Shown: piece by piece, positions 4,353 through 20,746 of the stretch
Layout of the letters: the number at the start of each line of letters is the position of its first letter
How positions within the stretch are numbered: position 1 is the stretch's first letter
Origin: a virus
Direction: 5' to 3' (one strand)
Virus record (IMG/VR): IMGVR_UViG_3300026321_000027
Coordinates: 1 to 20,746 of that record
DNA: 20,746 nt
Program-made: the position numbers and the translations under genes
Notes under the pieces: model-generated
Told to the model about the DNA's origin: nothing
The model's database searches: none
What the model saw: the letters and a program-made list of their open reading frames with translations, nothing else

Positions 4353-5873
4353 TTAGAACTCGATTACGATTTTGATATCTTCTATCTGGTCACCAGCACG
4401 AGTGATAGCTCCTCTGTTATCTATGTAGATAACGTCACCAGAGTTAGGATCAACTTCTGCTTTTGCATAACCATTAGTGAACGCCATACCTAGATCGTAT
4501 TCTGCATTGTTAATAACCCTTGTAGAGGATCCTGAAACAATTGGGAAGTTGATGTCTGGGTCAGCAGATGCACCTGAAGTAGCACCCACAATTGGGTTAC
4601 CACCTTCAAATTCGATTAGGTTACCAGTAAATTCTGGGAAGATACCGTCAACTCTATTCTGATAATACTTCAGCACCTTAGTGGTACTGTTCCATGATAT
4701 AACACGTCCTCTTGCTGTTACCTGTTGTCCACCAACAGTACGAGATTGTGTGATAATCTCATCTGTCTGGAAGTTACCAGTAAACGTCGGTGCAAAGATA
4801 GACGCTTTTGTTGCACTCAATGTTAAGTCTGAAGTTAACTCTTGAGTACCAAACTTGTTAGGATTAATTACCAAACCAATACGACGATAGTCGTTATCAG
4901 TCGGGAAGTCACCAGATCCTTCATCATAGGTGAACTTAGTGTTGATCATTACACGGAAACCACCCAACTCAGTTGCTGGAGAAGCACCATGTCCCATCGA
5001 TGGTGGAATAACAACTTCAACGCTACCACCAGTACCTGTACCAGCACCAATACCGTTGACTTCATCGATGATTACTTTACCAAAGGTGTATCCACTACCA
5101 CCAGATGTCACAGTAGCAGAGGCAATTCTACCACCATCAACTACAAGTGATACCCTACCACCTACACCGTCTCCTTTAATAGGGACGTTTTCATATGTAC
5201 CATTGTTATAACCACTACCAGATGAACCGATAATGATAGTATCAATCTCTCCACCAATAGCATCTGCTACAACAGCAGTATCTTCGAGCACAGGCATGTA
5301 CTCATTAGAGAAGAATTTTAAGACTTGACCAACAGGGATCGTGTACATATACTTCCAACGGTAGCCATCAGCAGTTGTGATAATGCTGGTGGACGTTCCT
5401 GTAGGTTCACCGTTAGGATCAGAAGGAGATGTGCCGTTGTAAATGCACTTGTATACTTGATAGGACGAGTTAACAACGTAGAAATCCGAGTCGTATAACT
5501 TCGTAGCACCTGAAGATGCGGTCTTAGTCGAGGAGTAATCATGACGGTACATATCATAGACATAACCCAATCCACCAGTGGTTTGCTCTGGGGGAATCCA
5601 GTCGGTACGCCTGACTACCTGAATAGTGTCATTTGCTAACACTCTCTTCAGGGAGATCATATCCGAATAGTCATCCGCAAATTCTTGGAATGAGTCTACT
5701 GGGTCTGGAGGTGCATTCTCATTGTCCCACGGTTGTGGTCTGCCAATGAACACGTAAAGGCGATCCCTAGCACTACCTGCCAACAGGTCAGATTGCGTAG
5801 GATCTGGTCCTTCAAGTGCTTTCCTAAACCTTTCGGCAGTAAAGATTCTAAATTGGTCGGTAAGTAACGCCAT
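4353..5873 (-). CDS. gp8: Baseplate wedge subunit gp8 (T4-like), enlarged
   Basis: This 506-residue protein is a homologue of T4 gp8, which joins gp7, gp10, gp6 and gp53 in the baseplate wedge. Collinear matches recalled from T4 gp8 are: IGRPQPWDNEN at 43-53 (T4 FGRSEPWSSNEN), VVRRTDW at 86-92 (T4 VIPRRDW), VYKC at 140-143 (T4 VYRC), ADGYRWKYMYTIP at 168-180 (T4 GDGYVWEYLFEIP), NEYMPV at 190-195 (T4 NEYIVV), GLVINP at 333-338 (T4 SIITNP), and the C-terminal IYIDNRGAITRAGDQIEDIKI (T4 IYMENRPPIIMAMDQTEEINI). It is about 170 residues longer than T4 gp8 (about 334). The extra length sits in two blocks, about 200-300 (two GSGY beta repeats) and about 350-450 (a 'GNFQTDEIITQ... ARGRVISW' and 'GATSGASA' module). 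The ATG at 5873 follows AGAAGG, 12 bases upstream, and a late-promoter-like octamer. Confidence 0.93.
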   Translation of the reverse strand: MALLTDQFRIFTAERFRKALEGPDPTQSDLLAGSARDRLYVFIGRPQPWDNENAPPDPVDSFQEFADDYSDMISLKRVLANDTIQVVRRTDWIPPEQTTGGLGYVYDMYRHDYSSTKTASSGATKLYDSDFYVVNSSYQVYKCIYNGTSPSDPNGEPTGTSTSIITTADGYRWKYMYTIPVGQVLKFFSNEYMPVLEDTAVVADAIGGEIDTIIIGSSGSGYNNGTYENVPIKGDGVGGRVSLVVDGGRIASATVTSGGSGYTFGKVIIDEVNGIGAGTGTGGSVEVVIPPSMGHGASPATELGGFRVMINTKFTYDEGSGDFPTDNDYRRIGLVINPNKFGTQELTSDLTLSATKASIFAPTFTGNFQTDEIITQSRTVGGQQVTARGRVISWNSTTKVLKYYQNRVDGIFPEFTGNLIEFEGGNPIVGATSGASADPDINFPIVSGSSTRVINNAEYDLGMAFTNGYAKAEVDPNSGDVIYIDNRGAITRAGDQIEDIKIVIEF

Positions 5874-5906: not shown

Positions 5907-7787
5907 TTATTCATCCTCATTTCTGACGGCTGTGGTATATTCAACGGAATATATCTTTGCCGTAGCACCAGAGGTGTTTCCTTGTAGTGTTTCACCCACT
6001 GTCCATAGGTATGTGGTACCATTCGGAGAAACAATATCTTTGATAGTTAATGTATGTAAGTCTTCATTACTACCTATCACAGGTCCAGCTGTAATACCAG
6101 TAGAATGAGCAGTCATACTTGAAGTCTGGCCTTGGACTTGCTCAGTAGCAGTAAATGTATTGCTATTGATGTATTCAACAATTAGAGTAGCAGTAGATGT
6201 ATGAGTATCTCCATCACCTAGAGCACCAGCAGATTGGATAGTAGCAACTAGAGATTGTGGATTACCATCATATATCTGATCACCTGCTTGGAACAAGGTA
6301 GTGTTTTGTCCACCTAATGTTTCCTCTATACCATATTTAGACTCAGCGATACCACCATCTAAACAAATCTGGTTTTCAAACTCAGTACCAGTGTTAAGTA
6401 AATCGATAATACCATCACCTACACCGTCTAATTCATCATCATCTTCAAACTTTCTGTTAAGAATGAGACTTAATGGAGTAGTGAATGCAACGATATCACT
6501 ACCCTCAAACTCTACTAATGTATGAGGAGAGACACCAGTACCAGATGCTCCAGCAGTACCAGCAACGAATGCTATAATTTTAGACTTCTCATTGGATCTA
6601 CCACCATCAATAAACGCTAGTTCATCAACCTCAAAGGTTAAATATAGTGCTCTTTGTATGGGATCCCAGTCATATACTATGGCAACTCGGTTATTAGAAG
6701 ATTCAATTACCCTTCTAACCTTATCAGTTACCTGAAAACTGTATGCAGTTAACCCTGTATTTGGATCATCCTGTAAGTTATCTAATATAACCTTCTGGTC
6801 AAAACGGAAGTTAACACCTCTATCACAACCAGTGAAGGAATCATAATCGTCACCATTTGATACAGCAGTCTTACCTGTATATCTTATAATCTCTCTACCT
6901 ACTAGTAACTTACCAGATCCTGCATATGGATCAGTAGTCTGCACAGTTAATGTGCCAGTACTAGAGTTAACGTTGCTAGTTAATCCAGTTATATCATATA
7001 CAGTAGAGTTAAGAGACTGTCTATTTCTTGCCTCTCTTATCAGGTTAGTATCTCTAGTAAAGATGATCTCTGGAGGAGTAGTATATCCACCTCCACCTGT
7101 CAATAGACTGATATTGGTAATCTTACCAAGGTTTATAAATGCCTCAGCAGTAGCACCAGATCCACCACCTTTAATAATTTGTATAAGAGGTGGAGTCTCA
7201 AAGAATTCACCTTGATTGGTTAAAGTAATAGATGAAACTTCACCAAATTGGTTAACGTTAGCAACACCTGTTGCACCTTGGCCACCACCACCGCTGATGA
7301 TGATATTTACGTCTTCCTCTGTGTAGTTTCTACCCTGCTCTTGTATAGCAAGACTGGTTATCAAACCTGTTACTGGTACTAACTCAGATCCAGATCCACC
7401 ACCTCCAATTATCTCAGCAGAAGCATCATAATACTGATCACCAGGTGTGGTCATCTGGATGAAATCTATACCACCATCTCCCTTAAGGAAGATCTTACCA
7501 TCTGCTGAATGATCTGAACCATCATCTTCTATCTTTAGACGTAATGGATCATATCCCTCACCAGGGTCTAATACTTCTACAGCAGTTAATTCACCTAGGT
7601 CACCTTCAATGACTGCTCTTAATACTGCGTCTCTAATAGGTGTACCACAATTCTCAACCCTTAGTCTTGGTGGATCATTAGGGTCATATCCACTTCCTTT
7701 TTCCTGTACATAAACATCCCTTACCCCAAATATACTATTGAATATTGGAATTATGGAAGCACCGCTACCTGGGACTGTTCTTGTCAT
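5907..7787 (-). CDS. Virion structural protein with glycine-rich GY..PP beta repeats
   Basis: A 626-residue protein I cannot name. Residues about 23-245 hold six degenerate repeats of a beta-strand, 'GxGY' turn, 'xPP', strand and 'GGGGSGA' turn (GSGYDPNDPP at 31-40, GEGYDP at 77-82, GDQYYD, GRNYTEED, GEFFETPP, GGGYTTPP at 232-239), which suggests a repetitive all-beta shaft. Residues about 295-325 contain LLVGREIIRYTGKT followed by FTGCDRGV, a module I associate with marine T4-like phage structural proteins. The C-terminus carries TVGETLQGNTSGATAKIYS, a module also seen in the gp8 insertion and the DUF4815-type protein. It begins 1 base after the stop of the fibre-like gene (TAG T ATG), so it is probably translationally coupled. 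Because it lies immediately before gene 8, where T4 has gene 7, it could do a gp7-like job in the wedge, but I see no gp7 motif and hold that loosely. Confidence 0.9.
   Translation of the reverse strand: MTRTVPGSGASIIPIFNSIFGVRDVYVQEKGSGYDPNDPPRLRVENCGTPIRDAVLRAVIEGDLGELTAVEVLDPGEGYDPLRLKIEDDGSDHSADGKIFLKGDGGIDFIQMTTPGDQYYDASAEIIGGGGSGSELVPVTGLITSLAIQEQGRNYTEEDVNIIISGGGGQGATGVANVNQFGEVSSITLTNQGEFFETPPLIQIIKGGGSGATAEAFINLGKITNISLLTGGGGYTTPPEIIFTRDTNLIREARNRQSLNSTVYDITGLTSNVNSSTGTLTVQTTDPYAGSGKLLVGREIIRYTGKTAVSNGDDYDSFTGCDRGVNFRFDQKVILDNLQDDPNTGLTAYSFQVTDKVRRVIESSNNRVAIVYDWDPIQRALYLTFEVDELAFIDGGRSNEKSKIIAFVAGTAGASGTGVSPHTLVEFEGSDIVAFTTPLSLILNRKFEDDDELDGVGDGIIDLLNTGTEFENQICLDGGIAESKYGIEETLGGQNTTLFQAGDQIYDGNPQSLVATIQSAGALGDGDTHTSTATLIVEYINSNTFTATEQVQGQTSSMTAHSTGITAGPVIGSNEDLHTLTIKDIVSPNGTTYLWTVGETLQGNTSGATAKIYSVEYTTAVRNEDE
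7053..7721 (-). repeat. Six glycine-rich GY..PP protein repeats
   Basis: In-frame repeats within the 626-residue structural protein (residues 23-245), spaced roughly 35-45 residues. Each ends in a run of glycines in the later copies (GGGGSGS, GGGGQGA, GGGSGATA). The first two and the last two copies keep the GY or PP signature best; the middle copies are eroded (DQYYD, RNYTEED). Single repeats of the same kind appear in gp8 (GSGYNNG, GSGYTFG) and near the C-terminus of the giant protein (GDGYTDRP, GVGYTSP). Confidence 0.75.
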
Positions 7788-7788
7788 A

Positions 7789-9270
7789 CTAGACTACTGT
7801 AAGGTTTCCTACCATTGCTGAATGCAATGTGCATTGATAAACATATGTTGTGCCAGCAGCAAGTGATTGAGGCACTGTCCAATATTGGACTCCCTGTTGA
7901 GATCCACTAACACCATCTGTGACTGCTGTACCACCAGAAGTCTGTCTTAAAGCAAATGGGTGTCCAGATCCAGTCTCATTATTAAATCTGTATGTGAATC
8001 CTCTGTAAACAAACATGGTTGGGTTATCAGTAGAAGCATTAACTCCACCACCTGCAAATCTATATGCAGAAGCACCGTTAGCAGTGACATTAACTCCAAC
8101 AGCAGCAGTTGCAACTGGTTCCCATGCAGTACCGTTATAGATTATAGTGTTATTTTCATCAGGTGAAGCACTGAGATATAGATCAGCACTTACAGTTACT
8201 GTATTTGCTGTTACAGCAGTAGTAACTCCATTACCACCAGTGACTGCCAGCGATGATGTCGCTAAAGCAGCAGTAGTTGTGCCAGAATCGCCAGTTACTG
8301 TCCTATAAACAACTTGCTCTACGTTAGGAGAGTCATTTGTAATCGTGAGATTGTCTCCATTAACAGCAGTACTAACACCAGACCCACCAATGATGTTAAT
8401 AGTAGCAGTTGTACTACTTGCGGTCTTGTTTCCTGCATCACTTCCTATTACACCATAAGCATTCTGGTTTGCATCTCCTAATGCACCAGTCATATTGATT
8501 GTTACTGTGTCTCCAGCGATTGCTGTGGTTATATTAGTACCTCCAGCAATAGTTAAGACATCAGTAGGAGCACTAGCAGTTGTTGTACCTGAATCACCAG
8601 CAATCCCTTCAAATAAATTCTGAGTTGTGCCTCCTCCTCCACCACCTGATGAATCATCGTTTGCTGGTTCCCATTTTGAATTACCAGCATTCCATTTTAT
8701 TACTTGTCCGTCTGAAGGTCCACCTCCAACGGTCATATCTACGTCTCCTAGGAGACCTAAACTACTACTCTCACTTATTAATGGTTCCCATACACCACCG
8801 TGTGCAAAGTATCCCTTTCCTTCAGCATGAGCATGGGCAAACATACCATGATGAGTAGATGCATCTGGCAAAGAAGCAAAATCTGTGAAGTGATTAGACC
8901 ACTTTAACTTTCCATCAGCACCATCGATGTATGTCAGAGCAGATCCTGTACCACCAGCCCAGAAATGAATATCTCCTGTGCCGTTTGGTTGAATTACTAT
9001 ATTACCGTCGTTTGCTGATATAATCTTATTGCCATTGACATCAATGTCATTAGTAAATTTACTGAAATCTCCCTCAGCAAACTGAGCACCATTCCATTTG
9101 AGTAATTGGTCTTGTGCTGGAGTCCCAACATTAATTTGTAAATTGGTATCGTTACCAAGATTGGTATATAACTCATCAATGACGCTATTTAATTTAATAG
9201 CACCATCTCTAAGACTGTCACCAGTCCCGTCATTTGCCGACGATCCAATTGCTAGGGTTTGCTTTGCCAT
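7789..9270 (-). CDS. Tail-fibre-like virion protein with C-terminal cupredoxin-like domain
   Basis: A 493-residue modular protein. The N-terminus (AIGSSANDGTGDSLRDGAIK, predicted helix to about residue 38) resembles an attachment segment I associate with marine phage structural proteins. Fibre-type strands follow ('LLKWNGAQF' near 57, 'VIKWNAGNSKWEP' near 190, 'IIYNGTAWEP' near 380). After a six-glycine linker (about 210) come three 'GDSGTTTA... LTIAGG..ITTA..GDTVTI' repeats at about 218-361, typical of a trimeric shaft. The last 79 residues (415-493) look like a cupredoxin: a beta strand with GHPF (His437), then YVYQCTLHSAMVGNLTV with Cys480, His483 and Met486, the full set of type 1 copper-ligand residues. 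There is no signal peptide, as expected for a virion part. It starts 23 bases after the YHYH gene's stop. A host-contact or fibre role is inferred. Confidence 0.9.
   Translation of the reverse strand: MAKQTLAIGSSANDGTGDSLRDGAIKLNSVIDELYTNLGNDTNLQINVGTPAQDQLLKWNGAQFAEGDFSKFTNDIDVNGNKIISANDGNIVIQPNGTGDIHFWAGGTGSALTYIDGADGKLKWSNHFTDFASLPDASTHHGMFAHAHAEGKGYFAHGGVWEPLISESSSLGLLGDVDMTVGGGPSDGQVIKWNAGNSKWEPANDDSSGGGGGGTTQNLFEGIAGDSGTTTASAPTDVLTIAGGTNITTAIAGDTVTINMTGALGDANQNAYGVIGSDAGNKTASSTTATINIIGGSGVSTAVNGDNLTITNDSPNVEQVVYRTVTGDSGTTTAALATSSLAVTGGNGVTTAVTANTVTVSADLYLSASPDENNTIIYNGTAWEPVATAAVGVNVTANGASAYRFAGGGVNASTDNPTMFVYRGFTYRFNNETGSGHPFALRQTSGGTAVTDGVSGSQQGVQYWTVPQSLAAGTTYVYQCTLHSAMVGNLTVV
7792..8028 (-). 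other. Cupredoxin-like C-terminal domain
   Basis: Residues 415-493 of the fibre-like protein. Seen: His437 (GHPF), Cys480, His483 and Met486 in C-x2-H-x2-M spacing, the same ligand-loop length as in amicyanin (CTPHPFM) and shorter than in plastocyanin. The order His, Cys, His, Met and the Y-x-Y-x-C strand fit a type 1 copper site. I recall similar 'YYQC..H..M' tails in other marine virus proteins, so this may be a shared structural cap rather than a redox centre. Confidence 0.6.
8190..8620 (-). repeat. Three GDSGTTTA shaft repeats
   Basis: Residues about 218-361 of the fibre-like protein. Copies begin IAGDSGTTTASAPTDVL, GVIGSDAGNKTASSTTATI and RTVTGDSGTTTAALATSSL. Each is followed by 'I.GG.(G/N)(I/V).TA' and a 'GDTVTI'-like strand. 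The middle copy is the most diverged. Repeats of this form are common in phage fibre shafts. Confidence 0.75.
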
Positions 9271-9290: not shown

Positions 9291-9298
9291 TATTTAGG
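9291..9298 (-). promoter_or_regulatory. Possible late promoter overlapping the YHYH stop codon (CCTAAATA)
   Basis: Minus strand reads CCTAAATA, one base off the NATAAATA late consensus (C for A at position 2). It overlaps the TAA stop (9296-9294) of the YHYH gene and lies about 20 bases before the ATG at 9270. The gap has no good Shine-Dalgarno sequence. It is a weaker candidate than the site at 5895-5902. Confidence 0.3.
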
Positions 9299-10889
9299 TG
9301 CCATCATATGTTTGTAATGTAGAGTCCATAGTAGATGAGGTACTATCGAATCTATTATCGGTGCTACCACCATCTCCAGCACCAGCAACAGTCAATATTG
9401 CTGCATTAGAGTCCAATGGTGAGTTAGATGCTGCTTGTGGTGCCCCTATAGGACCAGCGATCCTACAACGATACCTATACCCAGTCATATATGACAATGC
9501 AGTCACTGAATATGTGTTAGTTGTTGCTCCAGTTACAGCAGCAAATGCAAATCCACCATCAGTAGATCTATACCACTGGAATGCCACAGGACCATCTTCT
9601 GGTGATACAAGTTTAGTAACAGTGAATGTAGCAGTCTGACCTGCGTTAACTGTAGCATTCTGTGGTTGTAGACTGAATGATAATACTGGTGCAGGACCAT
9701 CTCCAGCACCTCCTCCACCGCCACCACCAGCAGGTGCCTCACTAGTGAAGGTTGTATCTATAGTTTCTCTAGTAGTATTACCAATAATGAATGGAAACTT
9801 AGTAATGTTTACATTAGTTTCATCTACTGTAAGGAAATATGCATAGGTACCATCCTGATATTCAGGTGTAATAGCAAATCTTCCATTATGAGTGTCTAAA
9901 TCACCTGTCCCTTCAACAAACTCATAGTCCTCCATGAGAGTACCAGCAGGTGGATTGTCACTTGTATTACCATAATCAGGTCTTCCTGCTACTTCTGTGT
10001 CTCTTACAGCATAACCAGTCCTCATTGTCCTAGTACCACTCAAATTATCGAATGGTGTGTCATATCCATAAGGTCCATAGATGGGAAATCCATCAAATGC
10101 TATGCCAACTATCTTAGAATGACCATCAGGATGACGAATATTGTCTCCATTATACTGAGTTGCACCATAATAATCGTTATATGATGCCATAGATGACCCT
10201 GCTTTCCAACAATCTAGGAAATGTGGGTCATGATAGTGGTAAATTCCCTGTTGTTCAGGGTGTCCACCACAAGAATCTTCTCCAGAGTTGACAAAAGTGA
10301 GATCACCAGCAGCAACCCAACTAAAACCAGAGGGAGGATTGAGTCCACCACCAGCAGAAGGGTTAAAAACAGCAACTCCATTACCAGCAACGCCAATTTG
10401 ACCTAGAGGAGTCTCAATTCTTGCATTTCTTTGATCAAAATACTCCATTGTGCCACTAACAGGAGTGGGTGCTTGTGTTGCTACAATGAAATCTAATGTA
10501 GTATCAGTAGATAACCAACACTCACCATCAATTGAAGTGAATGTTGTGCTTCTAAAGATGAATTTTTGCTTTAATCCGTCACTAAAGACGACCATTATCT
10601 CATCATTAACAGCAATACTTGGATTTGCACCAGTGAATAACGTTAAGTCATTGACTGAGATGGTCGCTCTCCGAATATATCCGTCATGCGTATATCCATT
10701 ATTATCAAATGTGCGAGCAATTCCAAATGTTCCTCCACGGTATAAGAAGTCATGATCCCAGTCTTTCTCCTGTATTGTATTAGGGTTATTATCATTAGGG
10801 AACGTGCCAGGAACCACAGGAGCAGGGAGGGCATCCGATGCTACTGTGATTATCTTGGTACTATTATCGTAGGAAGCTGTTGCTGCCAT
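9294..10889 (-). CDS. YHYH-domain virion protein with Ig-like domain
   Basis: A 531-residue protein. The N-terminal half contains the YHYH domain (PF14240, function unknown): SCGGHPEQQGIYHYHDPHFL with the name motif at 217-220, then HPDGHSKIVGIAFDGFPIYG at about 252-271. It is rich in His, Asp and aromatic residues with at least two Cys nearby, so metal or ligand binding is plausible but unproven. A seven-glycine linker at about 390 leads to an Ig-like domain at about 401-500 (SLQPQNATVNAGQTATFTV, FQWYRS, YRYRCRI, AAILTV), followed by a Ser/Thr/Asp-rich tail. The ATG at 10889 comes 15 bases after the giant gene's stop; the leader ATAAAAGTAAAAACA has no strong Shine-Dalgarno sequence. A virion surface or host-binding role is inferred from Ig-like domains in other tailed-phage structural proteins. 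Confidence 0.92.
   Translation of the reverse strand: MAATASYDNSTKIITVASDALPAPVVPGTFPNDNNPNTIQEKDWDHDFLYRGGTFGIARTFDNNGYTHDGYIRRATISVNDLTLFTGANPSIAVNDEIMVVFSDGLKQKFIFRSTTFTSIDGECWLSTDTTLDFIVATQAPTPVSGTMEYFDQRNARIETPLGQIGVAGNGVAVFNPSAGGGLNPPSGFSWVAAGDLTFVNSGEDSCGGHPEQQGIYHYHDPHFLDCWKAGSSMASYNDYYGATQYNGDNIRHPDGHSKIVGIAFDGFPIYGPYGYDTPFDNLSGTRTMRTGYAVRDTEVAGRPDYGNTSDNPPAGTLMEDYEFVEGTGDLDTHNGRFAITPEYQDGTYAYFLTVDETNVNITKFPFIIGNTTRETIDTTFTSEAPAGGGGGGGAGDGPAPVLSFSLQPQNATVNAGQTATFTVTKLVSPEDGPVAFQWYRSTDGGFAFAAVTGATTNTYSVTALSYMTGYRYRCRIAGPIGAPQAASNSPLDSNAAILTVAGAGDGGSTDNRFDSTSSTMDSTLQTYDGT
9390..9690 (-). other. Ig-like domain of the YHYH protein
   Basis: Residues about 401-500. The framework 'QP.NATVNAGQTATFTV ... 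FQWYRS ... YRYRCRI ... AAILTV' is that of a phage Ig-like domain. The strand-B Cys is replaced (FTV) while the strand-F Cys is present (YRC), so no canonical disulfide can form. It is clearly related to the domain ending the neighbouring giant protein. Confidence 0.7.
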
Positions 10890-10901: not shown

Positions 10902-10909
10902 TATTTAGA
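10902..10909 (-). promoter_or_regulatory. Possible late promoter overlapping the giant gene's stop codon (TCTAAATA)
   Basis: Minus strand reads TCTAAATA, one mismatch (position 2) from the NATAAATA late consensus. The TAA stop (10907-10905) of the giant gene lies inside it, and the YHYH ATG follows 12 bases after the octamer. It has the same arrangement as the site at 9291-9298. Activity is inferred only. Confidence 0.3.
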
Positions 10910-13900
10910 TGTCATCAAAGATGAGGTTAGGTGTAAAGTTGCTGATTACAGTTGCACCCGTCTGGACGCTTAAGATAGCGGACAGTGAGTAAACTGGAGT
11001 TGCGCCAGCAGCGGTTATAGCAACACGATACTCATCACCATCGTCTGCTTGTTGTGTAGCATTTGTGTTGTATGTTGCTTGGTTAGCACCAATGATGTTG
11101 CTCCAAGTCTGTGTGCCATACTCCTTCTTCTGCCACTGATAATTCATTGTCTGACCATTAGTTACGGTAGTAACGACTGTGAATGCAGCAGTCTGACCTT
11201 GGTTAACAGTTACGTTAACTGGGTCTGTAGTGATTGCAATCGTGCCAGGAGTAATTCCTCCTCCACCACCTTCTTGTCCACCAGGTCCTTCACCTGCGAG
11301 TACGTCAAATCCACCGTTAATTGGACCACCTACAGGAGGTGTAAAGTCATCTGGGACTACGTTATCGATAGCAACTATCGGTGAAGTATAACCAACACCA
11401 GATGTCTTAACATCAATACGTGTGATACCCATCAATGCCTTAAGTTTTCCGTCAAATCCTGAAGAGGAGATAACGTCAACGTTAGGACGGTCAGTGTAAC
11501 CATCACCAGGATTGGTTAGTACTGCGTTGGTAATCTGACCAGAGGTTATTGCTGAAATAGCATCAGCGTTTCTACCCTTAACAGATCCAGTGTATTCAAA
11601 TGTGATCAGTGAGTTAGAAGACTCAATTAGAGCAACTTCTCTTGCAAATTCTTCACCCTCGATGTTAAGTAGGTCACCTGCCTCAATTGGAGGTACGACT
11701 GTTGCTGCGATAACGTCTGCGTCAGATCCAATGTATGAGAAACCAACGAAGGTTGATCCCGCACGTGGGACTTCAGCAAAGATTATACGTGAACCAACGA
11801 TCTCGTATGCGACTCCAGGTTCCTGAATGATACCGTTAAGTGAAACGATAATGTTATTCTCAGGACGTATAGTGTTAGAAGAAACACCTTCAGTCAGTGT
11901 TAAGGAGTAGAATAATCCACCACGCTTAAGGTTGAAGGAAGATCTCAATGAGTCAAACTCGAAGGAGATATCATCTAACTGACGTAACTTACCAACGTAG
12001 TATCCGATAAATTCAGATCCAACTTCAGGTGCCTCAGCAAATTGTATCTTGTCAGAGAATGCAACGTAAGAAGCATTACCACCTGGAGGTTGTAGAATAC
12101 CATTAACGAATGCTAGTAAGTGACCAGCAGGATCTGGGAAGTATGCCTCACCGTTAGAAACGGTTAAGTCAAATATTGTTTGGACTCCATCAAATCCTCT
12201 GAAGTAACGATCAACTCTACCTTCTAGTGTGCGAGCAGAAGAAATACCTGCACCCCACTGGAAGTCAGACTTGAGTGACATGTTGTCAAGGAATGTGCCG
12301 TTAGCAGATTGTACCCAGATGGTAGCAGTAATACCTGCTTGCTCAATAGCAACAACCTGTGCGTAAGACTGATAATCAGTTGCAGTGTAACTTCCAACAG
12401 GAGCATAGATTGTTGGGAAGTTAGATCCCAATTCAATCTTACCAATGTTATTACCTGCCTGTGTTAAGTCAGTTAGAGGAGCACCGTTACCAACATCAAC
12501 TAAGTTAGCAATCCAGAGTTTGTGTGGTACTGGTGGGACTGCATTTGCATCTTCAGGTTGATACTTAGTAACTACAGCAGTGAATCCAGGATTCTTCTGC
12601 ACAGTACCTTGTAGGAGTGAAATTTGATCACCAACATTGAATGTGTCAGAGATACCAGTATCAATGATTGCTGTGCCTAGATTTAATTCTAGAGTTTGTG
12701 TACCATGTATCCACTGGTTAAGTTGTAACTGTGTACCACTGATACCCTTAATATCTAAAATGTAATCAGTAACACTACCGTAGATTACGTCTCCTGGTAT
12801 CCAAGGTTCCTCGATAGTTTCTACATCAATTGCAATTCTACCACCATCATTACCTGTGAGAGATCCAGACTTACTTGTGTAGAGGTCCATGTATGCTTCT
12901 ATAGCACCAACCTTACTGAAGAACCAATCGCCTGTAGCGAATGCTCCCTTCTTAACGTTGATTAAGAATCTATCTTCAGGAGTGCCAACTGTATGAATTG
13001 CACCACTATCAACACCTTCTAATACATCACCACTACTAATAGTACCAGCAATAGTATGAAGTTTCACGAATGATGTGCCATTCTCAGAATCAGGTTTCAA
13101 CATCTGTAATACAGATCCGTTATTAGCGGTTGCATTCTGGACTTGTGCTGATTCTCCATTTACGAACTGATCGTATGTACCTGGAGTTGTCTGTGCAGCA
13201 ACTGTTGGATAATGTGTAAAGAGTTTGTAGATCAAACCTTCGTTTGCTTGAATAGTGCCGATCTCAGCGTTAGCATTTGAGGTACTACCAAACACAACAT
13301 CAGCAGCATTGAATCCACCTTGTATTGGACATTCTGAAGTATCAGTTGCGAATGTAGCAGAAGTCCTAGGTACTCCATCTCTTCTATTAACAGAAAGTAT
13401 TTGAGATCCAGAGTTAGACTTATCTATTTGTAGAAGTCTGAATCTACCATCATGGATAAAGGAAGCACCAATTTCAAACCATTCAGCAGTACCAGTTAGG
13501 ACATAATAGTATTCCTGTCCAGTAAGACCAGATAGTGAATTCTCAGATGCTGGAATGTATGTTAATACATCACCACGACGGAAGTTATTTGGACGCTCAA
13601 TTCTAATTCTATACTCAGCACGATCATAACCTACATCAACTTCTGGGGTTAGACTTACTAGATCAGGATCAGTATTATAATCAATACCCATCTCATACTT
13701 GGTAACTCTATTAGTTGCGTCTGTAGATGCTACGAATGTTACTCTTGCTTCAGTTGGATACTGAGACATTTCTAGAGCAAACTCAATTGGGTTAAGTGAA
13801 GAGTCAATCATAAACTCAGCAGCTTCTTGATTCCACTCAAGTTTCTGTGGTGTCTCTATTGAATAAACATCATATGGATTCCATCCAGTAGATTCAAAGT

Positions 13901-16900
13901 CATACAATACACTCTTAGAATATTCACGAATTCTTGCTAAACAGTATATGAGATGAGTCCTTGTTACATTAGTGAATGCAATGAAGTTACCCTCACCGTC
14001 AAACCAGTCTTGTGTCAACTTGAATGATCCAGCATTACCTTCAGTAACTAAGTCGTATCTTAGTGCAGCAACAACATCATTAGCAAAATCAATTGTTAAG
14101 TTAGTAGTTGGATAAGATGTCTGAGTTTCAGCGAATGCTCTAGCAGTAATTGCTTGCTTGTTAAAGAGAATCATATTAGAAATTCTCTTACTGTTGTTTG
14201 ATCCGTTACCAAGTGCATCGGTAAATAGATCCATCAATGTGTCAATTGCTGACGTTACGTTATAGCAAGTACCTGACTGGAAGTCTGCGTTACTATTGTA
14301 TGGGAATGTCTTAGTTATAGTAGACAGATGATTTGTAGAAGCATTTGCTGCCTTATCAATTGTCTCTATAAAGATGTCTGCTAATGTATTAATAGCAGAT
14401 GCAGTTTCTTGACATGTTTGATTCCATGTGCCATTAGCATCTGATCCACCATTACTAGAATCGTAAGTGACAGTCTTATCTCTAATGACAACATCAGGTG
14501 TATACTTGACGGGCCAAATGATTGGCATTGTATAAGATCTACCAGCAACGTTACCAGGACTGGTAATAGCATCTGTTACTAATTGCATTAGGTTGCCAAT
14601 CTCAGCTTCTACACTAGCACCTTCATTACCTGTGTATTCCTCTGAAACTCTACGTGCACGATAGTATGATAGATCTGTCCTAAGTGGATATGCATAAGAC
14701 AATACTGATTGGACAGGTATTATCTTACCGTCAACGTAATCTGTTACACGAGGATATGTGTGCTGAGTAGCATTACTATCTTGACTACATGTGAATGTTA
14801 GTGAGTTACTATCAATCGTTATGGAGTCATCTGTGCGTAGACTATGACCAGCAACTGTAAAGGTTAATTGACCTGTAGTTGGCTCATAGTATGCATCAGT
14901 AGGTGTAAGTTGAGTACCATCATTAACTACGTTAATAGCACCAGTTAGAGCACTCACGAAGTTATGCTTATAGTTACCACCCTGTATTAAACATCCAGAG
15001 TTTGCACTCACGAATGTATGCTGGAATGTCTTACCAGCAGGTGATACACCTACGTTAATTCTTATCTTACCATCTTGGACTCTAATACCTTTCTCTATAC
15101 AAGATACAAATGTATGAGATCCCATGAAGTTGGTAGGAAGTGTATCTAACACTTGTACCTGGAATGTGTCAGTAGTTATGTTATGGACTGCCAACCATTC
15201 ATTGCTTGCATGATCTGTAGGTCTTGGATATAAGTGTGTAGTGCGATGAGCATCTAGATCACATGTAAATCCTAAAGCATAATCTTGTATGTAGATGTAA
15301 TCATTTGCCTTCCATATACCATCAGTCTTGGCAGATACAAAGTTGTGTTGATAGTTACCACCACCAATAACAGAACCAGGTATTGCACTGACGAATGTAT
15401 GATCGTAAAGGTTAGCAGTAGCAGCGATATTTACATCAACTGTAATCCAACCACTCTGTCTGTGTAATGTGTTATTCTTAAATCTTTCAAATGTATGAGT
15501 ATGGTTTCCACCAGCAGTAATAGCACCAGAAGTAGCAGAAGCAAATCTGTGTGTATGATTACCACTAACAGTGGATCCTACATTAACAGTAATTGTAGAA
15601 TTCTTCTTCTCTAATCCATCAGCAACAGCACTTACATATGTGTGTGCATAATCACCATTACCTCTTACTGTGCCTCGGATAACTGCACCTGTAACAACAG
15701 AATCAAACTGGTGAGTTGTAGTGTTAGGAGAAATTCCTACGTTTACATCAAATGTATTTGTCTGCTTATTAGAGATTGTTAACCAATTACCAGATTGAGG
15801 ATCTTGTGCTCTAGGATATGCATGAGTTGTAGCATAGTTGTCTTGCTGACACTTGAATACAATAGACTCATTCATAATCTGCACCTTATCACCATTCTCA
15901 AATGGGTGACCATTCTGGGTGATTGTCAATACACCTGTTGCAGGAGCATAGGCAGCAGTTGATGGAGTAAATGAATTCTCAGATCTTACAAATTGGTGAA
16001 GTGTTGTGTTACTTGACTTACCAACGTGCACTGTGATTGTATCAGCAGTAGCAGAAAGAATAGGTATAGAAGTATTATAGAATGGGTCAGTAGATCTTGG
16101 ATACTTATGCTCACTACCGAAGCTGTCAGCATTACACTTGAATACTAGTGACTCTTCCTCAATGTAAACTGCTTCATGTGCAAACTTAAGACCGTTAGTA
16201 ACAGCAGATACGAATGTATGAGCAGAAGTAACAGACTGAGGAGCAGATGATAAGACATTTACATCAAATGTATCTGTAGTGATGTTGCTAATGTTTAACC
16301 ACTTATCACTTGGATAATCAGTTGATCTTGGATATGCATGATTGTTAGTAGGATTATCAGCATTAGCGATACCAACTTGGAGTGTAATTGTTGTAGCAGT
16401 TGGGTTGGTTACTGCTAAGTTTGCTCCAGATGCAGGGTCGGTTGCTCTTGGATATGCGTGGTTAGTTGCATTACCGTCAGCAGCACAAGTAAAGGTTACA
16501 CCACCATTAACAATGGTAACTGTGTCAGCAGTTGTTAAACTATGTGATCCGATTTCTAAGACTAAAAGTCCAGTAGCAGGATCATATGTTGTACCAGCAG
16601 CTGCGGTGTATGTGTTACTACCATCATTGATAGCATTGTTAACACCACTTACAAATGCGTGAGTGCCAGTTGCAGCTTCACAATTGAAGGTTATAGATCC
16701 ATCGTCAAACTTAACTCTGTCTCCGATGACCATTCCGTGACTAGGGACAGTAGCTGTTAATACACCAGTTGTAGGATTATAAGCAGCATCAGTAAGTGTA
16801 GTTTGACCACCACCATTAAAGTTGTGAGCACCAATGGTGAGCACCATATCACCTGTAGTAGGTTCAAATGTTGCAGCAGAAACTAGGTAGTTAGCACGAG

Positions 16901-19900
16901 GTGTCTTACCAACGTTAACATCAAAGTTATTACCAGAAACATTAGAAATTTCTAACCACTTCTCTGAAGCATAATCTGTCTCTCTTGGATAAGAATGATT
17001 AGATGCATTGTTATCCATGTCACAAGTCATGACCAATGAATTGTCAGCAATTCTTACATGGTCACCATTTGCAAATGGGTTGTTAGCAACTGTTAGTGTT
17101 AATACACCAGTAGAAGCATTGTATGCAGCACCAGATGCTGAATACTTAGCATGACCTACTGCCTTGATTTCAATAGCATGATCGTATGCTCTATCTCTCT
17201 TCGCCTTAAGTCCATTATTAGCGAATGATTGGAAACTGTGTGTGAATGATCCACCAGCTCTTAGTGATCCTCTCTTAACAGCACCAACTCTTGCTCTCTT
17301 GAATGTATGAGCAGAGGTGTTTAGAGAAGGTATATTAGCACCTAATACTTGTACTCTGAATGTGTCATTAGATACGTTATCGATTGTTAACCACTTACCA
17401 CTTGCAGGATCACCATGTCTAGGATAAGAATGCTCAGTAGCATTATCATCTTTATTACATGTGAAGACTAATGAATTATCTTCAAACATGATCTGCTCAC
17501 CATTGGACATTCCATGACCAGCAAGAGTAACAGTCATAAGACCAGTACCACCACTGTATGAAATTGCGGTTGGAGTAAGTCCGACAGCAGGTTTGAATAC
17601 GTGAGTTGTAGTGTTAGAAGAAGTACCAACGTTAACTGTGATGGTGCTATCAGATACAGCAGTTACATCAACAGCATCTTGATATGCAGGGTCATCAGCA
17701 GAAGCACCACCAGTACCATTAGGACGTGGATAGAAGTGATCACTTGCATAAGAGTCCTGTCCACAAGTGAAGCAGAATGCTAATGCATTAATGTATACAG
17801 TATGTGCAGTTGTAATACCGTGGTCAGGACCAACAGTGATTACCATGTTACCGTTAGAAGGATTATATTCTACATTCTGAGGATCGAAACTCTTAAACTC
17901 AGACTTACCAACGAAAATCTTATATGTGTTAGCATCGATGTACTCAATAGGCTTCCACTTACCACTGATAGGATCAGAAGATCTAGGATAAGTCTTGTCA
18001 CTGGTACTTCCGTCCATTGTGCAACGCAAGGTTATTGCATTGTCATCAATCTTAACAAGAGATCCTTCATCTAATCCATGACCAGTAGAAGTAAGTGTTA
18101 AGTAACCTGTTACTCCATCGAATACAGCATTGGTTGGAGTGGAGTTATCAATTGTATTTCTTGGATATGCATGTGTAGATCCATAAGAGTCTTGACTACA
18201 CTCCATTGTGATTCCACCAGTAGCAATCTCTATACTCTGACCAACCTTAAGTGGATGAGTACCAACAGTGATTTCCATATCACCTGTTGTTGGTGTATAG
18301 TCTACATCTGTAGGTGTGTAACTAACAGCAGCAGTTGTGCCTACGTTAATATCAAATCCATCTGTAGATACATTAGAAATCTGTACCCACTTACCACTAA
18401 CAGGATCTGTGCCTCTAGGATATGCATGGTCACTAGAACCATCATCCATAGTGCAGGTCATATCCATAGAGTAATCATCAATCTTAATGTAGTCTCCATT
18501 TGAGAATCCATGCTTGGATACTGTCATTGCCAATACACCTGTAGATGGTGTGTAGGTAGCAGCAGTTGGAGTATGACGTGTTACACCATCATCAATGATT
18601 CTAAGTGAATTGTCATATGCAGGATCAGATGTCCTTGGATAGGTATGGTTAGATCCATTACTATCCATTGAGCAAGTGAATGTTAAAGCATCAGCAGCAA
18701 GTTTAATGCTGTCATTACCCTTCATCAAGGTAGCAACAGTTATACTCTGAGGTCTAGCAGATACAAAAGTATGAGTTGTAGTATTGCTAGAAGGTATGTT
18801 GAATAGTACCTGTATAGTAAATGTATCCTTAGTTACATTCTTAACTGTCATCCACTCATCACTATATGGGTCAGATGCCCTAGGATATGAATGGTTAGAT
18901 GCGTTACTATCTTGTGTGCAAGTAAATGTTACAAATCCATCTTCTACCTTAACCCTGCTACCATTCTTAAGACCGTGATCAGCAACAGTAAGTGTCATTA
19001 CACCTGTTGTTGGGTTGTAAGCAGCATTGGTTGGAGTAAGTTGTGCAGGAGCAACAAACTTGTGAGTGTAGTTACCACCAGTTGCAACTGTTGCTCTAAC
19101 AACAGCACCAGTAAGAGCACTTACAAATGTGTGAAGAGTTTGGTTGGTTGATGGTGCATTATCAAGTACCTTAACATCAAAGGTATCATCAGTTACGTTA
19201 GAAATAGGAATCCATGTATTGCCTACTGGATCACTAGCTCTAGGATAAGCATGATTAGATTGGTTACTATCCTGTAAACATGTGAATACAATTGAGTTAG
19301 TATTAAACTTAATACTCTCTCCATCCATGAATCCATGATGAGGAATAGTAACAGTCATCCAACCTGTTGTTGGATTGTATACTGCATTTGTTGGTGTATA
19401 TGCTTCACCATCTGCAACGAATGTATGGTTATATGCACCACCAACCTTCAGACTATTAGCACTAGAAGTTACATATGCGTGAGCAGTTGGATGAGTGATT
19501 TGACCATTACCGATATCAAGTATTATGCTACCAGTCTGTCTATGTAATGAATTGTTTGCAAAAGATACAAAGGTATGATCGTAAACATCATTTATACCAG
19601 ACTTGCCTACATGGACAGTGAAACTAGTATTAGTTACATTAGAAATAGGTAACCACTTAGCGAATGTAGGATCAGTCCTTCTAGGATATGTGTGGTTAGT
19701 AGCATTATTATCTTTTGTGCACTGTAAAGTTATTGCATTTTCGTCAATCATTACAAAGTCATTTGCTTTCCAAACAGCATCAGTGCCTATAGAAATAAGT
19801 TGATGGACTGTATTATTTGAAATAGCACCTTCACCTTGGAAGTTACCAACGTTAACATCGAATGAATTACTACCAACGTTGAATGCCTTCAACCACTTGC

Positions 19901-20746
19901 CACTAGCAGGGTCAGAAGATCTTGGATATGCATGGTTACTTCCATTACTATCTTGCTCACACTGGAAGACGAACTGTCCATCCTGAAGGAGTAGCATGTC
20001 ACCATTCTTAACGCTATGACCACTGAGATTGATTCTCATGGTACCTGTAGCAGGATAGAATGAAGCACCAGTTGGTGTCAGTGTGCTATGGTTAGCGAAG
20101 CTGTTACTCATAGTAACTACCATAGTACCAGCACTAGCATCATACTGGACGTTAGTTGGACTATGATCTGTCTTACCTACTTCGTAGATAGGAATATTTG
20201 TATCGAAGAAATGATCCTTCTTATGAGTAATACAATTTGCAGAAGCAGATACAAATGCATGGATTGTAGTATTTGTAGAAGGTATTACATCTAACACTTC
20301 TACAGTGAATGTATTAGAAGTAACATCATGGATCATCATCCACTTACCAGCAACAGGGTCTGTTGCTCTTGGGTATGTGTGGTTAGTTGCATTAGCATCC
20401 TTAGCACATGTAAATGTCAAGGAGTTATCAGCAATCTTAACGTAAGAGTATGGAAGGAATCCGTGATTATCAACAGTAAACTTAAGATGTCCTGTATTAG
20501 GATTGTAAGTAACGTCTGTTGGTGTGTGAGTTGTGCCAGGTCTAGGATATGCATGATTAGATCCATTTCCATCAGCACCACAAGTAAATGTTACTGCACC
20601 TTCGTCTAGTCTTACTGTATCTCCAGCATGACGTAGGCAATCAGCAACAGAAGTTGAATATGTATGATCGTAAACACCACCACTTACAATCTGTGCTCTA
20701 GTAATGCAGTTACCAACAGCACTAGAGAATAGGTGGGTTGTTGTAT
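10905..20746 (-). CDS. Giant modular repeat virion protein, N-terminus outside the window
   Basis: The reading frame is open from the right edge (first full codon at 20744) to TAA at 10907-10905, giving 3279 residues of an even longer protein. The TTG at 20420 is not a credible start: the same repeat pattern continues upstream of it. Residues 1 to about 2000 are a modular array: 'PTTGVMTVTV..HG...GD.VKI.DNSLTFTC', then C-x2-D-x5-H-x-YPR, then 'TDP.SGKWL.ISNVT..TF.VNVG', then 'HTFVSA'. About 2000-2300 is a more helical region with three 'AI..L.D.....I' segments. About 2300-3150 is beta-rich, with two 'VNGI(L/I)Q.PG' modules near 2880-3010 (12175-11720) and two 'GxGY..(R)P' repeats. A Gly-rich linker (11255-11300) precedes an Ig-like domain. 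It is upstream of the YHYH gene and resembles very large virion or fibre proteins of marine T4-like phages; a baseplate-fibre or adhesin role is inferred. Confidence 0.93.
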   Translation of the reverse strand, partial: TTTHLFSSAVGNCITRAQIVSGGVYDHTYSTSVADCLRHAGDTVRLDEGAVTFTCGADGNGSNHAYPRPGTTHTPTDVTYNPNTGHLKFTVDNHGFLPYSYVKIADNSLTFTCAKDANATNHTYPRATDPVAGKWMMIHDVTSNTFTVEVLDVIPSTNTTIHAFVSASANCITHKKDHFFDTNIPIYEVGKTDHSPTNVQYDASAGTMVVTMSNSFANHSTLTPTGASFYPATGTMRINLSGHSVKNGDMLLLQDGQFVFQCEQDSNGSNHAYPRSSDPASGKWLKAFNVGSNSFDVNVGNFQGEGAISNNTVHQLISIGTDAVWKANDFVMIDENAITLQCTKDNNATNHTYPRRTDPTFAKWLPISNVTNTSFTVHVGKSGINDVYDHTFVSFANNSLHRQTGSIILDIGNGQITHPTAHAYVTSSANSLKVGGAYNHTFVADGEAYTPTNAVYNPTTGWMTVTIPHHGFMDGESIKFNTNSIVFTCLQDSNQSNHAYPRASDPVGNTWIPISNVTDDTFDVKVLDNAPSTNQTLHTFVSALTGAVVRATVATGGNYTHKFVAPAQLTPTNAAYNPTTGVMTLTVADHGLKNGSRVKVEDGFVTFTCTQDSNASNHSYPRASDPYSDEWMTVKNVTKDTFTIQVLFNIPSSNTTTHTFVSARPQSITVATLMKGNDSIKLAADALTFTCSMDSNGSNHTYPRTSDPAYDNSLRIIDDGVTRHTPTAATYTPSTGVLAMTVSKHGFSNGDYIKIDDYSMDMTCTMDDGSSDHAYPRGTDPVSGKWVQISNVSTDGFDINVGTTAAVSYTPTDVDYTPTTGDMEITVGTHPLKVGQSIEIATGGITMECSQDSYGSTHAYPRNTIDNSTPTNAVFDGVTGYLTLTSTGHGLDEGSLVKIDDNAITLRCTMDGSTSDKTYPRSSDPISGKWKPIEYIDANTYKIFVGKSEFKSFDPQNVEYNPSNGNMVITVGPDHGITTAHTVYINALAFCFTCGQDSYASDHFYPRPNGTGGASADDPAYQDAVDVTAVSDSTITVNVGTSSNTTTHVFKPAVGLTPTAISYSGGTGLMTVTLAGHGMSNGEQIMFEDNSLVFTCNKDDNATEHSYPRHGDPASGKWLTIDNVSNDTFRVQVLGANIPSLNTSAHTFKRARVGAVKRGSLRAGGSFTHSFQSFANNGLKAKRDRAYDHAIEIKAVGHAKYSASGAAYNASTGVLTLTVANNPFANGDHVRIADNSLVMTCDMDNNASNHSYPRETDYASEKWLEISNVSGNNFDVNVGKTPRANYLVSAATFEPTTGDMVLTIGAHNFNGGGQTTLTDAAYNPTTGVLTATVPSHGMVIGDRVKFDDGSITFNCEAATGTHAFVSGVNNAINDGSNTYTAAAGTTYDPATGLLVLEIGSHSLTTADTVTIVNGGVTFTCAADGNATNHAYPRATDPASGANLAVTNPTATTITLQVGIANADNPTNNHAYPRSTDYPSDKWLNISNITTDTFDVNVLSSAPQSVTSAHTFVSAVTNGLKFAHEAVYIEEESLVFKCNADSFGSEHKYPRSTDPFYNTSIPILSATADTITVHVGKSSNTTLHQFVRSENSFTPSTAAYAPATGVLTITQNGHPFENGDKVQIMNESIVFKCQQDNYATTHAYPRAQDPQSGNWLTISNKQTNTFDVNVGISPNTTTHQFDSVVTGAVIRGTVRGNGDYAHTYVSAVADGLEKKNSTITVNVGSTVSGNHTHRFASATSGAITAGGNHTHTFERFKNNTLHRQSGWITVDVNIAATANLYDHTFVSAIPGSVIGGGNYQHNFVSAKTDGIWKANDYIYIQDYALGFTCDLDAHRTTHLYPRPTDHASNEWLAVHNITTDTFQVQVLDTLPTNFMGSHTFVSCIEKGIRVQDGKIRINVGVSPAGKTFQHTFVSANSGCLIQGGNYKHNFVSALTGAINVVNDGTQLTPTDAYYEPTTGQLTFTVAGHSLRTDDSITIDSNSLTFTCSQDSNATQHTYPRVTDYVDGKIIPVQSVLSYAYPLRTDLSYYRARRVSEEYTGNEGASVEAEIGNLMQLVTDAITSPGNVAGRSYTMPIIWPVKYTPDVVIRDKTVTYDSSNGGSDANGTWNQTCQETASAINTLADIFIETIDKAANASTNHLSTITKTFPYNSNADFQSGTCYNVTSAIDTLMDLFTDALGNGSNNSKRISNMILFNKQAITARAFAETQTSYPTTNLTIDFANDVVAALRYDLVTEGNAGSFKLTQDWFDGEGNFIAFTNVTRTHLIYCLARIREYSKSVLYDFESTGWNPYDVYSIETPQKLEWNQEAAEFMIDSSLNPIEFALEMSQYPTEARVTFVASTDATNRVTKYEMGIDYNTDPDLVSLTPEVDVGYDRAEYRIRIERPNNFRRGDVLTYIPASENSLSGLTGQEYYYVLTGTAEWFEIGASFIHDGRFRLLQIDKSNSGSQILSVNRRDGVPRTSATFATDTSECPIQGGFNAADVVFGSTSNANAEIGTIQANEGLIYKLFTHYPTVAAQTTPGTYDQFVNGESAQVQNATANNGSVLQMLKPDSENGTSFVKLHTIAGTISSGDVLEGVDSGAIHTVGTPEDRFLINVKKGAFATGDWFFSKVGAIEAYMDLYTSKSGSLTGNDGGRIAIDVETIEEPWIPGDVIYGSVTDYILDIKGISGTQLQLNQWIHGTQTLELNLGTAIIDTGISDTFNVGDQISLLQGTVQKNPGFTAVVTKYQPEDANAVPPVPHKLWIANLVDVGNGAPLTDLTQAGNNIGKIELGSNFPTIYAPVGSYTATDYQSYAQVVAIEQAGITATIWVQSANGTFLDNMSLKSDFQWGAGISSARTLEGRVDRYFRGFDGVQTIFDLTVSNGEAYFPDPAGHLLAFVNGILQPPGGNASYVAFSDKIQFAEAPEVGSEFIGYYVGKLRQLDDISFEFDSLRSSFNLKRGGLFYSLTLTEGVSSNTIRPENNIIVSLNGIIQEPGVAYEIVGSRIIFAEVPRAGSTFVGFSYIGSDADVIAATVVPPIEAGDLLNIEGEEFAREVALIESSNSLITFEYTGSVKGRNADAISAITSGQITNAVLTNPGDGYTDRPNVDVISSSGFDGKLKALMGITRIDVKTSGVGYTSPIVAIDNVVPDDFTPPVGGPINGGFDVLAGEGPGGQEGGGGGITPGTIAITTDPVNVTVNQGQTAAFTVVTTVTNGQTMNYQWQKKEYGTQTWSNIIGANQATYNTNATQQADDGDEYRVAITAAGATPVYSLSAILSVQTGATVISNFTPNLIFDDI
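10960..11250 (-). other. C-terminal Ig-like domain of the giant protein
   Basis: About residues 3166-3262 of the visible fragment, behind the linker GPGGQEGGGGG. The framework 'DPVNVTVNQGQTAAFTV ... YQWQKK ... DGDEYRVAI ... AILSV' parallels the Ig-like domain of the YHYH protein. Neither canonical Cys is present. A 17-residue tail ending NLIFDDI follows. Confidence 0.7.
14200..14630 (-). repeat. Three helical 'AI-x2-L' segments in the giant protein
   Basis: Between the repeat array and the beta-rich C-terminal part are three related predicted helices: AEIGNLMQLVTDAI, ETASAINTLADIFIETI and NVTSAIDTLMDLFTDAL. The second and third are each preceded by a Cys (NQTCQE, GTCYN) and lie about 52 residues apart. 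They look like an internal duplication and could form a helical hinge or coiled bundle between two beta regions. Confidence 0.5.
14748..20549 (-). repeat. Array of 19 C-x2-D-x5-H-x-YPR boxes in the giant protein
   Basis: The YPR codons begin (plus-strand left coordinate) at 14748, 15222, 15810, 16095, 16326, 16446, 16983, 17418, 17724, 17982, 18159, 18414, 18633, 18879, 19239, 19680, 19920, 20367 and 20541. Spacings run from 120 to 588 bases, all multiples of three. Seventeen of 19 copies keep the whole pattern with exact internal spacing. One has Lys for His (17982), and one lacks the Cys half (16326). Linkers between boxes are built from 'TTGVMTVTV', 'ISNVT', 'HTFVSA' and 'GG-x3-H' pieces in varying order. 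Confidence 0.85.

Follow-up and report, generated by a model that had tools for sequence, protein, structure and literature searches.

The analysed stretch, a 20,746-nt IMG/VR fragment taken whole and called the window here (20.7 kb), has all of its large genes on the minus strand, among them the C-terminal part of a giant open reading frame that contains a repeat array (Table 1). Judged by its gene string, the window is the baseplate region of a T4-like cyanophage (Kyanoviridae), because the same string follows gp6 in the nearest isolates, P-RSM6 (giant protein of 8,573 aa), P-TIM40 (7,351 aa), S-WAM1 (6,737 aa) and S-SZBM1 (6,619 aa). The order gp6–giant gene–...–gp8 is seen in these four phages and also in P-SSM2, P-SSM4, S-SSM7, Syn19, S-TIM4 and S-PM2. 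Matches to the array protein were found in 324 phage records, all at <60% identity, and every record name refers to Synechococcus, Prochlorococcus, a cyanophage or a marine virus. By its isolate relatives, the phage would infect photosynthetic bacteria of the ocean; psbA/psbD genes (PF00124) were found in none of the related fragments, each 33–101 kb long.

Table 1. Features of the window, by ascending start coordinate; aa positions refer to the window copy of the giant protein.
Feature	Coordinates	Strand	Basis or remark
DUF4815 structural protein	2..4348	-	Profile matches; contig end cuts gene
Baseplate wedge gp8	4353..5873	-	Profile matches
Baseplate-wedge-related protein	5907..7787	-	PHROG 22827/708
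T4 gp9/gp10 N-terminal-like baseplate protein	7789..9270	-	Profile matches
YHYH-domain protein, Ig-like C-terminus	9294..10889	-	Profile matches
Giant ORF, C-terminal 3,279 aa	10905..20744	-	5' (high-coordinate) end open
C-terminal non-YPR part of giant protein	10905..14564	-	Alignment with relatives
Ig-like C-terminal domain of giant protein	10965..11243	-	PHROG 613/4069 match
YPR repeat array	14691..20678	-	22 HMM matches, 19 YPR boxes; runs past contig end in relatives
HTFVSA/GG-x-Y-x-H-rich stretch without YPR cores, extra hairpins	15150..15650	-	Part of the 196-aa spacing; low-confidence structure
Segment where window differs from all close relatives (62–78%)	15645..15944	-	aa about 1600–1700; most of those relatives agree at 86–94%
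Segment missing in relative L020, 211 aa	16173..16808	-	Alignment; aa 1313–1524
Short-start unit, joined straight to preceding HTFVSA hairpin (junction type B)	18594..18725	-	aa 674–717, model positions 28–71
Representative full unit, nine predicted strands	19089..19406	-	aa 447–552, model positions 3–109

Scanning IMG/VR with the non-repeat C-terminal region of the giant protein gave 23 related loci (64–94% identity). The gene is complete in five contigs (9,553, 9,559, 9,560, 9,792 and 9,458 aa) and cut at 9,228 and 9,400 aa in two others; measured against complete relatives of 9,458–9,792 aa, the window copy amounts to about the last third. The giant gene occupies the gp7 position, with gp6 on one side and the genes for the YHYH protein and gp8 on the other: gp6 lies directly upstream of it in full relatives, and the window shows the matching downstream neighbours. 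In one full-length relative (G007), the array is preceded by a YHYH domain (aa 1396–1541, E 2.6e-27) and by a lectin-like LamG domain (about aa 4480–4606, E 1.7e-15). Complete copies carry 29–31 array units between about aa 5,490 and 8,300. The N-terminal 1,300 aa are homologous in seven isolates at 50–66% identity and more weakly in three more; the conserved N-terminus (..VSDRVE.QLPEFI..YYKSQEKTG..) is present in close relatives, and the window copy is cut before it. The PHROG 701 profile (phrog_701) matches the C-terminal half of the window protein with E 1.5e-267 and the full relative with E 0, and the last 400 aa are strongly conserved, at about 88% against isolate phages around aa 2900–3000.

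Several further observations concern the giant gene and its neighbours. YHYH domains occur both inside the G007 giant protein and in the separate next gene, which suggests that a virion domain was duplicated between neighbouring genes. At about aa 4038–4106 of the same giant (locus L043), Pfam reports Phycobilisome (PF00502) at 23.5 bits against a cut-off of 22.2, a probably spurious match, given that it lies in a phage structural protein, yet an odd one for a cyanophage. S-SSM7 has two genes annotated gp7 (L079 7562–26656), the first with the conserved N-terminal region and no YPR units and the second with YPR units and lacking that N-terminus, an arrangement that looks like a split of the giant gene. 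Our literature search found no paper on the largest phage proteins, and we therefore assert no size record.

The array contains 19 exact YPR boxes on the minus strand, the lowest starting at 14748 and the highest ending at 20549, which bears out a first-pass annotation of nineteen boxes sharing a core over about 6 kb. Successive boxes are separated by 58, 149, 80, 147, 120, 82, 73, 85, 59, 86, 102, 145, 179, 40, 77, 95, 196 and 158 aa, and this range of 40–196 aa reproduces exactly the unit lengths of 120 to 588 nt first reported. All the smaller pieces described alongside the boxes were recovered by motif count, with 15 TG-strands, 19 YPR boxes, 18 HTFVSA-like and 8 GG-x-Y-x-H-like pieces, and 26 ISNVT-like strands under a loose pattern. 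An HMM built from the boxes, the check that annotation had proposed, scored up to 158 bits per unit, whereas 20 shuffles of the same protein all stayed at or below about 2 bits (full-sequence score). Tandem Repeats Finder detected no tandem repeats in the DNA, so the repeat exists only at the protein level; within the window, unit cores are 28–53% identical to their best paralogue. The boxes lie where the array had been placed, but the array does not end at the window edge: HMM matches extend slightly beyond the outermost boxes, to approximately the limits in Table 1, the minus-strand ORF is open at its 5' end, and the array of relatives begins ~800 aa farther upstream, so that this part falls outside the window.

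We predicted the structure of a two-unit segment with AF2 from 54 aligned segments. The unit is modelled as a nine-strand beta domain of ~105 aa (mean pLDDT 84), the GG-x-Y-x-H linker is the sole weak internal stretch, and a pTM of 0.48 leaves the orientation of one domain to the other uncertain. A second model (aa 1505–2012, 508 aa, 17 sequences) kept the YPR units and placed the hairpin-rich stretches at pLDDT <50. The predictions thus describe a single domain type that recurs and has separable hairpins, rather than a uniform fold without module boundaries. Pfam returned no family above cut-off for the unit, only Fn1_2 and E1_FCCH below it, and NCBIfam returned no family; sequence searches of the PDB gave 0 matches to the unit and only noise for the N-terminus, and a fold search of the PDB with Foldseek gave nothing significant for the unit. 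In a comparison with predicted viral structures, the top-ranking matches that carry a name were cyanophage structural, tail or baseplate proteins.

To describe how units are joined, we applied a refined 110-position unit model to nine proteins. The core comprises strands 3–7 and carries FTC..D.N..NH.YPR..DP; it is flanked by hairpin 1 (strands 1–2, TPT.A.Y.P.TG.M..TV) and hairpin 2 (strands 8–9, HTFVSA...AI). Joints cluster at model positions of about 28–31, 59–60, 84–88 and 107–109, mostly loops; across the nine proteins, internal starts cluster at 28–32 and internal ends at 84–89, and strands are interrupted by 0 of the 25 internal starts and by 8 of the 57 internal ends. At tight joints (a gap of 6 aa or less), neighbouring cores are linked by one hairpin, either the preceding HTFVSA or the following TPT..TG. 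In the discovery set, 43 of 48 tight junctions followed this rule (Fisher p 1.4e-7): 29 lacked hairpin 2 before and had hairpin 1 after, 14 had hairpin 2 before and lacked hairpin 1 after, 3 had both hairpins and 2 neither. In an independent set of 78 loci obtained later and absent from model building (604 non-redundant junctions), one hairpin linked 319 of 339 tight junctions, split into 227 and 92 of the two types, with 12 having both and 8 neither; the p value of 4e-59 is not to be taken literally, since junctions are partly dependent and domain envelopes cannot overlap much. The method permits the both and neither classes, and both hairpins was the commonest class at linkers of 7–60 aa (100 of 223).

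The hairpin rule accounts for the irregular spacing, since a hairpin dropped or added changes the distance between boxes. By our reading, one hairpin gives about 80–86 aa and two give 100–120 aa or more, spacings of about 58 aa arise where strands 6–7 are missing, and those of 145–196 aa contain extra HTFVSA/GG hairpins. The array is therefore unlike a simple tandem repeat, as first annotated, in that sub-pieces are lost or doubled at defined places, with joints mostly in inter-strand loops.

We compared module order across relatives. Six loci (L014, L015, L016, L023, L029 and L036; about 80–93% identical) and the covered part of L021 are collinear with the window across the array and have the same modules in the same places; in global alignment, the only array indels of at least 8 residues are 8-aa insertions. 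Order is the same among relatives that are 75–95% identical. Window units match their positional orthologues mostly at 74–98%, against 28–53% for the best paralogue, and in close relatives the positional orthologue beats every paralogue except in two L036 cells. The lowest positional matches (66–79%) belong to the unit at aa 1642, and some L036 or L020 cells are lower still where the position lacks a unit whose YPR triplet is intact. Changes in module content are confined to relatives of about 80% identity or less, namely L020, L024, L033, L025 and L026. In L020 the deletion fuses two units at equivalent points, each in the loop between strands 2 and 3, and what remains is a normal composite unit. 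An additional unit (about 117 aa, at aa 117) is present in L024, L033 and L026, and in L024 it sits within the D..NH.YPR core. In L025 and L026, about 330 aa are added at aa 1717, and about 100 aa near aa 1356–1479 are missing from L024 and L033. Across the wider group, unit matches per protein fall from 29–31 in the window clade to 21 in P-RSM6, 15 in S-SSM7_103, 13 in P-SSM4, 11 in P-SSM2, 8 in S-TIM4, 6 in Syn19 and P-TIM40, and 0 in S-WAM1, S-SZBM1 and S-PM2d081. We saw no reordering of modules among the compared relatives, only gain and loss.

Module content thus changes slowly, through rare in-register gain and loss, and is not shuffled from one close relative to the next. Pieces are indeed dropped and doubled, as had been proposed, but the reordering proposed with them was not seen, and the expectation that module order would differ between isolates failed in the orthologue comparison, where seven relatives have collinear arrays in identical order. 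The idea that the protein evolves by recombination among submodules holds insofar as content ranges from 0 to 31 units between genera, but order is fixed within the clade and recombination extends to control genes.

Recombination was apparent from allele sharing read in fifty-residue windows: L016 and L036 reach 94–98% over aa 250–400 and 94–96% over aa 950–1100, against about 80% elsewhere. The divergent segment around aa 1600–1700 is likely, from its alignment pattern, to be an allelic replacement. The PHI test rejected an absence of recombination in the array (observed 0.333 versus shuffled 0.455, s.d. 0.004), in the C-terminal part and also in the downstream control genes (0.384 versus 0.458, with a somewhat different contig set). 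As control genes recombine as well, strong recombination is general, and array-specific recombination as a special feature was ruled out. dN/dS was 0.24–0.26 in the array, 0.13–0.16 in the N-terminus and 0.21–0.25 in two other internal regions; selection on the array is relaxed but purifying, and the array value rules out diversifying selection at the scale of gene regions. In the relatives compared, with the G002 tract left out, the array was among the least conserved parts (64–91% versus 84–95% for the N-terminus). That tract concerns G002 and G007 (L016 and L029), whose DNA is about 75% identical up to aa about 3,200 and about 100% from there to aa about 9,200, with gp6 at 79%; these 18 kb reflect either a recent transfer or a chimeric contig.

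The reading that we favour, and consider reasonably probable, is that the array strings beta domains together within a giant structural protein anchored in the baseplate of a T4-like cyanophage. A conserved N-terminus at the gp7 position would be followed by the YHYH domain, the LamG domain, ~30 YPR units and the conserved C-terminal part. Each unit would consist of a core plus hairpins, with one hairpin of two interchangeable types at tight joints and often two hairpins plus a linker at loose joints, so that losing or adding a hairpin would shift the spacing while apparently leaving the fold intact. The chain would form a long baseplate arm that positions binding domains, lectin-like ones included, and may be used in host adsorption; its units would be gained or lost rarely by in-register recombination and its alleles swapped often by ordinary homologous recombination.

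A role in adsorption is plausible, given the lectin-like domain, virion proteomics and mutations in an array-less homologue. Mass spectrometry of purified S-SM1 virions detected a protein of the T4-GC969 group (PMC3037559), and the Syn19_088 record bears the label T4-GC969. S-PM2d081, a positional homologue by synteny with similarity in the N-terminal region (E 4.5e-33), had acquired a non-synonymous mutation by day 39 of coexistence with Synechococcus WH7803 and mutated again later (PMC9910659). Because S-PM2d081 has no YPR units, its mutations bear on the protein and not on the array, and the lack of YPR units in S-PM2d081, S-WAM1 and S-SZBM1 makes the array non-essential to the protein. For the array itself, the adhesion or host-range role suggested by the first-pass annotation is plausible; the purifying selection on it is not what one would expect of a rapidly evolving receptor-binding tip.

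This leaves some room for the array being a pure spacer, a structural rod or length-setting arm without direct host contact, whose variation would reflect relaxed constraint on length while binding falls to the LamG domain or to separate YadA-domain or tail-fibre proteins. We regard this as somewhat unlikely. It agrees with the purifying selection, with the absence of the array in several orthologues and with a unit order fixed at 75–95% identity. It agrees, too, with S-TIM4 evolution, where PMC6224464 reports mutations mostly in genes for tail-fibre and baseplate proteins and, in the main text, stresses the YadA protein ORF108 and does not name ORF_101. Against it stand the low conservation of the array relative to the N-terminus and the replacement of array content between genera.

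That same replacement, together with the mosaic identity patterns and the PHI signal in the array, is what one would expect if submodules were reordered between isolates by recombination as a fast host-range switch. We consider this improbable, because arrays are collinear in seven relatives with positionally orthologous units, control genes clearly recombine too, and gain and loss occurred without reordering; at the scale of this clade, fast shuffling is largely refuted. An origin of the repeat or mosaic in misassembled metagenome contigs is very improbable: a chimera could produce the abrupt identity change between G002 and G007, but loci from many samples have the same array in long unbroken ORFs, isolate genomes carry YPR arrays themselves, and arrays recur in 78 further loci.

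The giant protein also bears on a gap in the cyanophage gene set. T4-like cyanophages have no recognisable homologues of T4 wac, g10, g11, g12, g34, g35 and g37 (PMC2984593), and the giant protein, encoded in the baseplate operon and equipped with a lectin-like domain and a long array, is a candidate substitute for these missing tail-fibre and baseplate genes. The junction rule makes an apparently chaotic repeat a readable code and offers a testable model for length changes in giant phage proteins that leave folding unharmed. Irregular spacing, moreover, need not signal fast shuffling, and in this array it is an old, inherited trait. More speculatively, and with rather less confidence than in the arm itself, the array might be a polymer of beta cores with exchangeable hairpins, each hairpin ending one unit or starting the next, in which pieces are inserted, dropped or spliced at any of the equivalent strand boundaries with the fold kept, one-hairpin joints are stiff and two-hairpin joints flexible, and hairpin order encodes the shape and length of the baseplate arm. 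If true, this would be a general, rule-based route for repeat proteins to vary length and bending.

The unit appears to be a marine-phage module, as far as tested. A scan of IMG/VR found at least 564 stretches with the unit core, and among 84,980 bacterial and archaeal genomes the core occurred in only two contigs, both from metagenome-assembled genomes; these scans used a narrow pattern from five closer cores, which remoter cellular relatives could escape. The two contigs (L083 and L084), labelled Euryarchaeota and Planctomycetaceae, have long YPR arrays of 30 and 10 units and are probably mis-binned cyanophage DNA. The unit has a weak sequence likeness to E1_FCCH (PF16190), the catalytic-cysteine half-domain of ubiquitin-activating enzyme (E 0.0034–0.0054), and a weak likeness in fold (Foldseek probability 0.85 to 2v31, E 0.09); both methods stay below threshold, and there is no functional link. 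T4 gp7 (1,032 aa) occupies the matching position after gp6, but homology to it was not significant (hhalign probability 0.2%, P 0.32; first 130 aa, P 0.13–0.35; no PDB match), although the best alignment recurred at the same place.

The closest known systems are the cyanophage giants annotated as 'virion structural protein' or 'baseplate wedge initiator gp7' (PHROG 701 and 18802; T4-GC969 and relatives), whose members P-RSM6 CPXG_00128, P-TIM40 PTIM40_99, P-SSM4_080 and S-TIM4 ORF_101 share the position between gp6 and gp8. These giants have the conserved C-terminal part in common and several have YPR units; the N-terminal 1,300 residues of G007 are 64–66% identical to those of P-RSM6, P-TIM40, S-WAM1 and S-SZBM1. 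With 29–31 units and 9.5–9.8 kaa, the window clade exceeds any isolate examined, the largest having 8,573 aa and 21 units. The same YPR unit occurs in other, tail-fibre-like genes with other N-termini, P-HM2 'YapH' PHM2_096 and S-SSM7_103 (PHROG 5342 and 1276), and, judged from this sharing among different virion genes, modules appear to move between genes. In P-HM2, PHM2_096 (L080 23396–34429) places the unit in a second virion gene, outside the gp7 position. The protein is thus of a known kind, a giant cyanophage structural protein, with a repeat domain absent from the curated libraries checked and a clear rule, open to testing, by which its units are assembled.
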